Below are positions 29,588 to 34,023 of a stretch of DNA of 39,071 nt, in pieces. The DNA comes from Flavobacteriales bacterium. GTDB taxonomy: Bacteria; Bacteroidota; Bacteroidia; Flavobacteriales_C; GCA-002722245. A program made the translations under genes and the position numbers. The notes under the pieces were generated by a model. It saw only the letters and a list, made by a program, of their open reading frames with translations. It was not told the DNA's origin and ran no database searches. Position 1 is the first letter of the stretch. Every line of letters starts with the position of its first letter. The stretch spans positions 1-39,071 of the forward strand of contig CANFBW010000029.1 in NCBI GenBank assembly GCA_947444925.1. Direction: 5' to 3'.

Positions 29588-30556
29588 ATGATTCAAAAAC
29601 AATCGCTTTCCGAAAAAGAAGAGTTACATCCGCGCAACAAGCACCGCGCTCGTTACAATTTTAAGCATTTGCTGAAAAGTTGTAACGAATTGAATGAATT
29701 TGTGATGCTCAATTCGCAAAATGAGGAAACTATCGATTTTAGTAATGCAGCAGCGGTTAAAATGCTCAATAGAGCTTTGCTCAAGCATTATTATGAAATT
29801 GAAAATTGGGATATTCCAGCAACATATTTGTGTCCGCCTATTCCAGGTAGAGCGGATTATCTGCATTATATGGCCGATTTGCTGGCTTCTTGCAATGAAG
29901 GAGTGATACCGACAGGAAAGCATATTAACTGCTTGGATATTGGCGTTGGAGCAAATTGTGTGTATCCACTTATTGGAAATAAAGAATACGGATGGAGTTT
30001 TGTAGGTTCGGATATTGATCAGGTTTCAATTCAATCTGCAAAAAAAATAATAAAGTCGAATGGTGCTTTGAAAGATGTTGTTGATTGTAGGTTGCAGTCT
30101 TCGAAATCACGAATATATCGAGGAGTGGTGAGGCCTGGAGAGTGGTTTGATCTCTCTATTTGCAATCCGCCTTTTCACGCATCACTCGCTGACGCGCAAG
30201 AAGGTGCGAAGCGGAAATGGAAAAATTTAAATCCCAAAAAAGAAGATAAAACCACCCTTAATTTTGGCGGACAGAATACCGAATTGTGGTGTGAAGGCGG
30301 AGAAGAGGCCTTTGTACAAAAGATGATAGAACAGTCGGCAAGTATTCCCACAACATGTTTTTGGTTTTCTACAGTGTTGTCAAAAAAGAGTAGTTTGCCT
30401 ATCGTATACAAAACATTGAAGACTTTTAAAGCGTTAGAAGTTCAAACGATTCAAATGTCTCAAGGGCAAAAAGTGAGTCGTATTGTTGCTTGGACTTTTC
30501 TTACGAAGGAGCAGCAGGCAGAATGGCGCAGGAAAAGGTGGACTGTTAAAAAATAG
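29588..30556 (+). CDS. rlmF: 23S rRNA (adenine(1618)-N(6))-methyltransferase RlmF
   Basis: Methylates N6 of A1618 in 23S rRNA using S-adenosylmethionine. SAM-binding motif I is LDIGVGANC (116-124), with SDID (141-144) as motif II. The catalytic N6-adenine motif NPPF is at 193-196 (ICNPPFHAS). The N-terminal LHPRNKHRARYNF (about 13-25) is conserved in RlmF. Length 322 fits the family. It is monocistronic, with a bidirectional terminator directly after the stop and a gene-poor region before it. Start ATG 29588. Confidence 0.95.
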   Translation: MIQKQSLSEKEELHPRNKHRARYNFKHLLKSCNELNEFVMLNSQNEETIDFSNAAAVKMLNRALLKHYYEIENWDIPATYLCPPIPGRADYLHYMADLLASCNEGVIPTGKHINCLDIGVGANCVYPLIGNKEYGWSFVGSDIDQVSIQSAKKIIKSNGALKDVVDCRLQSSKSRIYRGVVRPGEWFDLSICNPPFHASLADAQEGAKRKWKNLNPKKEDKTTLNFGGQNTELWCEGGEEAFVQKMIEQSASIPTTCFWFSTVLSKKSSLPIVYKTLKTFKALEVQTIQMSQGQKVSRIVAWTFLTKEQQAEWRRKRWTVKK

Positions 30557-30592
30557 CAAAAAAAAACTTTCGAATTTCGAAAGATTTTTTTT
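30557..30592. terminator. Bidirectional terminator after rlmF
   Basis: A 7-bp stem CTTTCGA/TCGAAAG (30567-30573, 30577-30583) with loop ATT is flanked by nine As on the left and eight Ts on the right, which extend the stem. It serves rlmF (plus) and the convergent lipoprotein gene (minus). Confidence 0.82.
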
Positions 30593-31582: not shown

Positions 31583-32971
31583 TTAGTAGCCTAAGATTTT
31601 CATCATTGACTTAGCGCTTTGTTCCTTTGAAAAAAGTTTAGTGGTGTAGTCGTCATCGTCGTCTTCCTTGCTGATGATGATGTGTTTCGGACTAGGAATT
31701 AAGCAATGCTTCAATCCACCTACACCGCTAAGTGTTTCTTGATAAGCACCAGTATAGAAGAAGCCGAGGTGAAGCGGTTCTTTCGTTTGAAGTTTTGGTA
31801 AAAATATTTTGTTGTTGTGTTTTTCAGCGTTGTAAAAATCTTCGCTGTCGCAGGTAAGTCCTCCTAAGAAAACCCGTTGACACTCTTTGTCCCAATGATT
31901 GATGGCGAGCATAGGGTAGCGCTGGTCAATGGCCCATACGTCGGGCAAAGTTGTCATGAAAGAATTGTTGATCATGTACCACAACTCTCTGTCGTTTTGT
32001 TGTTTTTGATTCAAGATAGAGTAGAGCATCATGCCGCTTTCGCCAACAGTGAATGTACCAAATTCAGTAAATAAATTGGGATGATCAATATCTTCTTCGT
32101 CGCACGCTTTTTTTATGGTTTCTACAATTCCTTCTGCGGTATAATCGTAATCCCATTCAAATTGAAGAGACGATTTGATAGGGAAGCCGCCGCCAATGTT
32201 AAGGGAATCCAATTCTGGACAGATTTTTTTGAGTTGCACATATATCTGCAAACATTTGCTCAACTCGTTCCAGTAGTAATCGTTGTCCTGAACTCCTGTA
32301 TTGATAAAAAAGTGAAGCATTTTCAGCTTCGCCATTTTGTTTGGTTTTATTTTTTCTTTGTAGAAATCAACAATCATGTTTGGGTTAATTCCCAAGCGAG
32401 AGGTGTAAAAATCAAAGTTAGGTTGTTCCTCAGTTGCAATCCGAATACCAACATTGAAAGGTCTTTTCACTTTTTCGTAGGCCTTAATTTCATGCATATC
32501 GTCCAAAACCGGTATGATGTTAAAGCCTTCGTTGATCAATTTTACAATTCCCTGCGTATATGCAGGTCGTTTAAATCCATTGGAAATGATGAATGTGTCC
32601 TTGGTCAGTTTTTTTCTTTGGTATAGATTCTTGATAATGTGCAAGTCGAATGCAGATGATGTTTCAATATGGATATCGTTCTTAAGCGCTTCTTCCATTA
32701 CAAATGAAAAATGAGAACTTTTTGTGCAATAGCAGTAAGTGTAGCTCCCTTTGTAGTTTTGACGTGCAATGGCGACCTTGAAAAAGGTTTTAGCGCGCTG
32801 TATTTGTTTGCTGATATTGGGCAAATAGGTAATTCGAAGTGGCGTACCATACTTCTTAATTACATCCATCAAAGGAATTTTGTGAAAATGTAATTCATTA
32901 TCAATAACTTCGAATTCAGGATTGTTTTCCTCGAGAATTTCTTCGTGTAGTTCGTGATAGGTTGATTGCAT
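31583..32971 (-). CDS. Arginine decarboxylase, PLP-dependent fold-III type
   Basis: Decarboxylates L-arginine to agmatine, the first step towards putrescine and spermidine in the cytoplasm. The alanine racemase-like barrel carries the PLP lysine K84 in YCYCTKSSHF; the glycine-rich phosphate loop is LNIGGGFPIKSS, and the C-terminal barrel shows LGGLTCDSEDF and FFYTGAYQETLSGVGG (substrate-side Cys-Asp and Tyr). The 462-residue length is shorter than E. coli SpeA (658) but normal for the Bacteroidetes type. Diaminopimelate or carboxynorspermidine decarboxylase are the nearest alternatives; adjacency to an arginase supports arginine as substrate. It is divergent from that gene across 86 bp. The ATG at 32971 is the likely start. 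Confidence 0.87.
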   Translation of the reverse strand: MQSTYHELHEEILEENNPEFEVIDNELHFHKIPLMDVIKKYGTPLRITYLPNISKQIQRAKTFFKVAIARQNYKGSYTYCYCTKSSHFSFVMEEALKNDIHIETSSAFDLHIIKNLYQRKKLTKDTFIISNGFKRPAYTQGIVKLINEGFNIIPVLDDMHEIKAYEKVKRPFNVGIRIATEEQPNFDFYTSRLGINPNMIVDFYKEKIKPNKMAKLKMLHFFINTGVQDNDYYWNELSKCLQIYVQLKKICPELDSLNIGGGFPIKSSLQFEWDYDYTAEGIVETIKKACDEEDIDHPNLFTEFGTFTVGESGMMLYSILNQKQQNDRELWYMINNSFMTTLPDVWAIDQRYPMLAINHWDKECQRVFLGGLTCDSEDFYNAEKHNNKIFLPKLQTKEPLHLGFFYTGAYQETLSGVGGLKHCLIPSPKHIIISKEDDDDDYTTKLFSKEQSAKSMMKILGY

Positions 32972-33016
32972 GTTAACTGAGTTACTTTAATGTGTAGTGA
33001 TCCAATCCAAGTTAAT

Positions 33017-33024
33017 TACATTTG
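33017..33024 (+). promoter_or_regulatory. Candidate -7 promoter box (TACATTTG) for arginase
   Basis: Exact TAnnTTTG on the plus strand, 33 bp before the arginase ATG. No strong -33 box is seen 19-21 bp upstream. Confidence 0.45.
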
Positions 33025-33035
33025 TAAATTCGCGT

Positions 33036-33043
33036 CAAAGATA
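33036..33043 (-). promoter_or_regulatory. Candidate -7 promoter box (TATCTTTG) for arginine decarboxylase
   Basis: Exact TAnnTTTG on the minus strand, 64 bp from the decarboxylase ATG. It faces the arginase -7 box with only 11 bp between them, so both start sites would fall close to 33030 and the two polymerase footprints would overlap. Confidence 0.45.
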
Positions 33044-33057
33044 AGTAATATTAGGAT

Positions 33058-34023
33058 ATGGAGTCAGTAATTTTAATAGAAAATAAATCAGAAATCGGAG
33101 CTGCCAAATGGGGCGCTGGAATGGGCATAGATGCCTTGAAGACGGTAGCTAAAACCCTACAGGATCAGTTCTTTTCTCAATATCCATCGGTAAAAATACA
33201 AGACGAAAACGATACTATATTTGAAGAAACACCGCACCGGTATGCGCGGAGGATAGATAAGATACTTACTATTTGCGAACGCTTGTCTTCTGAAGTGGAA
33301 GTGCAGTTGAAAGATGCTAAAAAGTTCCCTGTTGTGATCTCAGGAGACCATTCTCCAGCAGCAGGAACTATCGCTGGAATTAGAAAAGCATTTCCAGACA
33401 AGCGAATCGGAGTGATTTGGATTGATGCTCACGCCGACATACATACGCCTTACACCACACCTTCGGGAAATATGCATGGAATGCCACTTTGCGTCTCGTT
33501 GGGCATTGACCACAAAGAACATCAGTTGCACGAACCTAAAAAAGAAACGATTGAATTGTGGGAGAAATTTAAAAAATTAGGAGGTGATGGTCCTGATGTT
33601 TCACCTAGAGATCTTGTTTATATTGGTGTTAGAGATACTGAGCCTGCTGAAGATGAGTTGATGGAAATTCACCATATGAAAAATTATACTGTTGATAATT
33701 TTCGCCAATTGGGCGTAGAGAAAATGGGTAAAGAGATTGAAGAGTATCTGAGCGCCTGCGATATCGTATATGTTTCGTTTGATGTGGATTGTTTGGACTC
33801 GTCTATTTCCGTGGGAACAGGAACTCCAGTTCCGGGAGGTTTTTGGGCGCACGAGGCGGAAAAAATAGTGAAGGAAGTCTTAAAAAACCCTAAAGTGATT
33901 TGCTTTGAAATGGTTGAAATCAACCCGGCATTAGACAATAAAGGCAATAAAATGGCGGAGATGGCTTTCGATATTCTGAAAATCGCGGTGCATCAAATCA
34001 AAAGAACAAAGGGCATCGCTTAG
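33058..34023 (+). CDS. Arginase (ureohydrolase family)
   Basis: Hydrolyses L-arginine to ornithine and urea with a dinuclear manganese centre. The ligands are all visible: H98 (SGDHS), D123, H125, D127 (IDAHADIHT) and D242, D244 (SFDVDCLD). The active-site H140 (GNMHGMP) and the PSGN loop favour arginase over agmatinase. The usual DxxDP motif is DCLDSS here, a mild change. The 321-residue length is normal. Start ATG 33058 gives the only plausible N-terminus. It is divergent from the arginine decarboxylase gene, so the two main arginine-consuming reactions start from one intergenic region. Agmatinase activity cannot be excluded from sequence alone. Confidence 0.88.
   Translation: MESVILIENKSEIGAAKWGAGMGIDALKTVAKTLQDQFFSQYPSVKIQDENDTIFEETPHRYARRIDKILTICERLSSEVEVQLKDAKKFPVVISGDHSPAAGTIAGIRKAFPDKRIGVIWIDAHADIHTPYTTPSGNMHGMPLCVSLGIDHKEHQLHEPKKETIELWEKFKKLGGDGPDVSPRDLVYIGVRDTEPAEDELMEIHHMKNYTVDNFRQLGVEKMGKEIEEYLSACDIVYVSFDVDCLDSSISVGTGTPVPGGFWAHEAEKIVKEVLKNPKVICFEMVEINPALDNKGNKMAEMAFDILKIAVHQIKRTKGIA

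Follow-up and report, generated by a model that had tools for sequence, protein, structure and literature searches.

The gap between the divergent genes for an arginine-decarboxylase-like enzyme (ADC) and an arginase in the window (the whole stretch of DNA analysed, 39,071 nucleotides) probably serves as a paired operator, at which an unlinked DNA-binding regulator would repress arginine decarboxylase. The gap contains a conserved palindromic motif, which is paired with a second copy in helical phase, is linked to the ADC gene and in relatives overlaps the ADC -7 box. From these features we infer the binding of a protein, the repression, the signal behind it and any effect on arginase. Taken as a whole, the palindrome evidence suggests that a DNA-binding protein exerts control here, with ADC at its centre. 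The positions of the genes, boxes and predicted sites are collected in Table 1.

Table 1 Features of the ADC–arginase gap and its flanking genes in the window.
Feature	Position	Strand	Details
Divergent gap	32972..33057	.	86 bp
Arginine-decarboxylase-like enzyme (ADC), 462 aa	31583..32971	-	Orn_Arg_deC_N above Pfam cut-off
Arginase (RocF type), 321 aa	33058..34023	+	TIGR01229 above its cut-off
Main palindromic operator (predicted), AATCCAAGTTAATTACATT	33004..33022	.	centre 33013; 18.7 bits, best PWM site of the window
Weak second operator copy (predicted), ATGTTAACTGAGTTACTTT	32970..32988	.	centre 32979, 34 bp from main; 5.6 bits; overlaps ADC start codon
Candidate arginase -7 box, TACATTTG	33017..33024	+	start about 33029; 33017-33022 within right arm of main operator
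Probable ADC -7 promoter box, TATCTTTG	33036..33043	-	start about 33031; TAnnTTTG here in 5/5 genus members

A sequence-only reading of the window had described the gene pair as arginine decarboxylase and arginase, divergent across 86 bp. Both the divergent arrangement and the extent of the gap are confirmed. The arginase scores 234.8 bits against TIGR01229 (cut-off 227.6) and its best solved relatives are arginases; by sequence comparison, this assignment is firm. The best solved relatives of the ADC are arginine decarboxylases. The protein is a short form, below the length of the NCBIfam SpeA proteins, and it falls below the SpeA cut-offs (174.3 vs 369 bits and 161 vs 624.1 bits). Arginine is therefore only its presumed substrate, and the first half of the earlier description is narrowed to an arginine-decarboxylase-like enzyme.

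Several further features were observed. In the window, the arginase gene is followed by a gene for a TPR-AAA ATPase. A family of about 595 aa is present in 15 of 27 neighbourhoods and immediately follows arginase, in the same orientation, in L103 (4666-6444), L104 (7023-8819), L105 (7891-9678) and L106 (10558-12342); the L103 member is an arginyl-tRNA synthetase by Pfam. Another contig of the window's genome (L003, 1466-1587 of G000:C15) matches the C-terminal residues 292-320 of the arginase with 69% identity over 29 residues. Between positions 30000 and 36000, the window holds 12 terminator-like sites, compared with 4.7 in shuffles, and one of them is a hairpin readable on both strands at 30567-30583, between two convergent genes.

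The divergent arrangement is widespread in the class. Among the 149 genomes of the class draw, ADC is found in 132 and arginase in 117, and by their coordinates the two lie side by side and divergent in 76 of these 132 ADC-bearing genomes, with a longest gap of 528 bp. The pairing is thus old and no quirk of the window's genome. The ends of 44 gaps were taken from the ends of tblastn matches, so that these gaps may include a few codons, and two genomes with the genes 3-5 kb apart (G090 and G063) were counted as unlinked. One contig labelled Chryseobacterium gleum (L045) shares about 85-89% protein identity with the window's genus (MAGs), and its label is doubtful.

Placed side by side, the gaps of relatives show a repeated mirror sequence. 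An unsupervised palindrome search of 32 gaps yielded the consensus AATGTAAGTnACTTACATT, which is 19 bp long with a single central base; five duplicate loci (L004, L034, L035, L036 and L045) had been dropped before the motif was learned. Compared with dinucleotide shuffles, a site at p<0.01 is present in 29 of the 32 gaps, the exceptions being L009, L026 and L027. The next best PWM site of the 39-kb window after the main palindrome scores 11.1 bits and lies inside the arginase gene. With a site called at a PWM score of at least 10 bits, the palindrome is found in 17 of 20 training genomes (shuffles 2/1200) and in 33 of 57 further divergent gaps (shuffles 10/3420), while 24 of these 57 are without it; the shuffle rate in divergent gaps is 0.2-0.3%. 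Because families are common to both, the training set and the 57 further gaps cannot be regarded as strictly independent. Of the 57, thirteen were read from loci fetched for motif matches, which leaves the count unbiased, since the 57 and the training genomes together make up all divergent genomes of the draw.

The distribution of the palindrome follows the relatedness of ADC. The site is present in 59 of 67 genomes in which ADC is at least 59% identical to that of the window, and in 1 of 61 below this value. The lone positive below it, G056, reaches 12.1 bits and is without a good second copy. Eight genomes with a close ADC are without the site (G110, G035, G106, G076, G108, G073, G055 and G043). 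This split leaves out G004, which is outside the class draw, and G064 and G034, which gave partial matches.

The palindrome is accompanied by a second copy at a fixed distance. The spacing between the best site and the best second site is 33 or 34 bp in 54 of 62 positives, and these two offsets account for 43 of the 46 second sites that score at least 5. A distance of 33-34 bp is about three turns of DNA, and both copies therefore face the same side. Two 19-bp inverted repeats with their centres so spaced would seat two protein dimers on the same face of the DNA, where the dimers probably hold each other in place through cooperation. The second copies of the other four members of the window's genus score -1.0, -1.0 (at -34), 2.0 and 5.2 (at -33). 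At +34, over the ADC box, the score is -23.8, and a third phased copy there was rejected. The points against an operator in the window itself are its second copy, which is weak (5.6 bits) and placed over the start codon, and its ADC box, which is located outside the operator arms.

Genomes in which the two genes are apart indicate which of them the palindrome serves. The site is found at 12 of 54 unlinked ADCs (shuffles 13/3240) and at 0 of 32 unlinked arginases (shuffles 12/1920), a difference with a Fisher p=0.003 when kinship is ignored. The ADC count covers 54 of 56 unlinked genes, leaving out G005 and G047, which have no intact ADC start. The arginase count covers 32 of 41, with G128, G075, G079, G105, G019, G137, G104, G068 and G135 outside it. 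Seven of the 32 site-less arginases belong to genomes that do carry the site at ADC (G012, G094, G126, G058, G050, G032 and G090).

The palindrome is in addition closely associated with the ADC promoter box. In 30 of 62 positives, an ADC-ward TAnnTTTG falls exactly in an operator arm, with the box start 11 bp from a centre; it lies elsewhere in 12, and none is present within the stretch examined in 20. In the column profile, GCAAATGTAAGT stands on the ADC side, and a comparable extension is absent on the arginase side. An arginase-ward box is located in the operator arm in 3 of the 62 positives, the window among them. In many relatives the operator arm would double as the ADC -7 element, and a bound protein would thus keep RNA polymerase off. 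In the window's genus, the ADC -7 box stands beside the main site, which would cover about +10 to +28 of the ADC transcript, an early transcribed region still close enough for a bound protein to hinder polymerase. The likely outcome would be repression of ADC in response to the level of arginine, agmatine or polyamines.

The sequence-only reading had placed the weight of the gap on its promoter boxes. It reported an exact TAnnTTTG box on each strand, facing each other with 11 bp between them, and both starts near 33030. The two boxes, TACATTTG and TATCTTTG, are present as described, and both match the -7 element of flavobacterial and Bacteroides sigma-A promoters (TTTG / TAnnTTTG). In passages of PMC9723704 and PMC6847099, the -7 element of this promoter class spans -12 to -5, with T at -12 and G at -5, and those of PMC6847099 give its form as TAHHTTTG. 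This register puts the starts at 33029 (+) and 33031 (-), in agreement with the position claimed. Unlike these sigma-A promoters, neither window promoter has a -33 TTTG (no TTTG or TTG is found near 32996 on the plus strand or near 33064 on the minus strand), and one of the two boxes falls mostly within a palindrome arm. Of the eight bases of TACATTTG, six belong to the right arm of the palindrome, and the arm TTACATT together with the following TG yields the exact plus-strand box.

Across the 77 divergent gaps, TAnnTTTG is found arginase-ward in 32 and ADC-ward in 43, compared with about 10 each in shuffles; such gaps therefore hold promoters. The earlier proposal built on this arrangement a switch, in which two sigma-A promoters face each other with starts within 3 bp and a polymerase on one blocks access to the other, so that ADC and arginase would be expressed alternately, free of any regulator. 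The polymerase footprints would indeed overlap, each box is exact and agrees with TAHHTTTG as given in PMC6847099, and a facing pair separated by 0-20 bp is present in 8 of the 77 real gaps (three of them in the window's genus), compared with 0.19 on average when the 77 are shuffled. However, the exact 11-bp geometry is found in 1 of the 77 gaps, that of the window, and the expected conservation of this spacing in relatives fails. Within the genus, conservation holds for the ADC-ward box, whereas the arginase-ward box is exact at the same place in 1 of 5 members, again the window; it lies 8 bp further on in G002 and G004, and G001 and G003 have none. The coincidence of the plus box with an operator arm and the lack of a -33 TTTG at either promoter also speak against the switch, as does the arginase-ward TAnnTTTG itself, which is present in only 13 of 50 motif-bearing gaps. 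We therefore set the mutually exclusive promoters aside as an unlikely account of the gap, in which the conserved object is the paired palindrome. Polymerases may still exclude one another in individual genomes, but such exclusion is not what has been conserved.

The arginase-ward box is rarer in motif-bearing gaps (13 of 50) than in motif-free gaps (19 of 27; p=0.0002), which is a lead for a role of the palindrome in arginase control, although kinship confounds the comparison. Separately, 6 of 6 loci that carry arginase alone (L049-L053 and L056; labelled as four Chitinophagaceae and two Flavipsychrobacter) have TATCTTTG a few bases upstream of the arginase match. It is likely a short-leader promoter there, and the palindrome is present in none of the six.

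The palindrome might alternatively be a part of the ADC promoter, an extended -7 plus spacer element that is read by sigma with no separate regulator. The fusion of the -7 box with the operator arm in 30 of the 62 positives is what such an element would give. Its symmetry, its two phased copies and its separation from the -7 box in the window's genus are at odds with this reading, as is the location of near-exact copies elsewhere, almost all of which lie inside reading frames, and we regard a sigma-read element as distinctly improbable. Less probable still are RNA hairpins in the ADC leader that control translation: both window copies do lie within the predicted leader, but over 95 sites the arms pair as expected for independent arms or less, with no notable excess at any of nine positions (largest excess 79 vs 78.5 expected), the predicted leader shows no folding advantage over shuffles (z 0.94), and many relatives have an operator that overlaps the -7 box and is thus partly upstream of the start. 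The lack of covariation between the arms argues against an RNA stem, and the palindrome behaves like a pair of independent half-sites recognised by a protein dimer.

The preferred reading, a paired operator bound by a protein, resembles several known systems. NrdR boxes are paired palindromes about three turns apart, for which our literature search found nothing. Like the ADC gap, they have a pair of inverted repeats spaced by about three turns, close to or overlapping a promoter; their sequence and target differ from those of the ADC-gap palindrome. An NrdR gene is above the cut-off in 0 of 149 class genomes, and an NrdR regulon was rejected on this count. The ARG boxes of ArgR/AhrC are likewise paired palindromes at arginine genes, but differ from the ADC-gap palindrome in centre and spacing. 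ArgR is above the cut-off in only 7 of 149 genomes, none of which is a genome with the motif found (four have no ADC match, two were examined and are without the motif, and one has an ADC start that was unexamined), and an ArgR regulon was rejected because ArgR is absent from the motif-found genomes. The operators of Lrp/AsnC, phased on one face, are similar in having palindromes at about three-turn phase at amino-acid genes; an Lrp/AsnC regulon was rejected, with PF01037 unmatched in three of six motif bearers tested (G142, G030 and G105).

Three other families were rejected in the same manner among 14 motif-positive genomes. GntR is above the cut-off in 0 of the 14, with one weak match in G030; PadR has no match in 5, the window's own genome included; and HxlR has no match in 9. 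The sole HxlR-type match of the window's genome, L258 (G000:C10:61281-61541), has a stop codon counted in its open stretch. Draft genomes can miss genes, and single absences are therefore weak while the combined absences are strong.

The neighbourhood of the gap does not supply a candidate either. A regulator is absent among the 13 families that recur in at least 3 of 27 neighbourhoods, all from motif-bearing genomes. Besides ADC and arginase, these families are arginyl-tRNA synthetase, a DUF4412-type protein, FtsK, a LolA-type protein, SRP54 and a folate dehydrogenase, together with CHU_C, Kelch, a secretion-tail family, a DEAD helicase and a glycosyltransferase, each named from one member. 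Near-exact motif matches in the 149 genomes, fetched at 44 places, fall at ADC in 22 cases, inside reading frames in 20 and between frames in 2. Of the latter, one lies past the ends of two convergent frames (L072) and the other before a TPR protein (L082); the genes holding the 20 in-frame matches have Pfam names for part only. In the window's own genome, one further match is found at 3 mismatches, compared with two matches to the reversed control pattern. Among the fetched motif matches, neither a further target nor a regulator gene under its own control came to light, which is unusual for a repressor.

A wider proposal would combine these results. The regulator would lie outside ArgR, NrdR, Lrp, GntR, PadR and HxlR, would have this single locus as its target, and would both repress ADC through the -7 box and activate or free arginase. 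As a whole we consider this proposal speculative and rather unlikely. If it is true, a single-locus regulator acting on paired palindromes would decide the fate of arginine.

Nothing on such an operator or on ADC control in Bacteroidota was evident in the literature within reach of our search, which is weak evidence of novelty with most subscription journals outside its coverage. As far as that literature extends, the control of ADC in Bacteroidota seems little studied. The operator pair is precise and kept over deep divergence, and would be a ready bait for the regulator. In addition, our analysis highlights that a promoter-like box in the AT-rich gaps of these genomes can be the arm of an operator.
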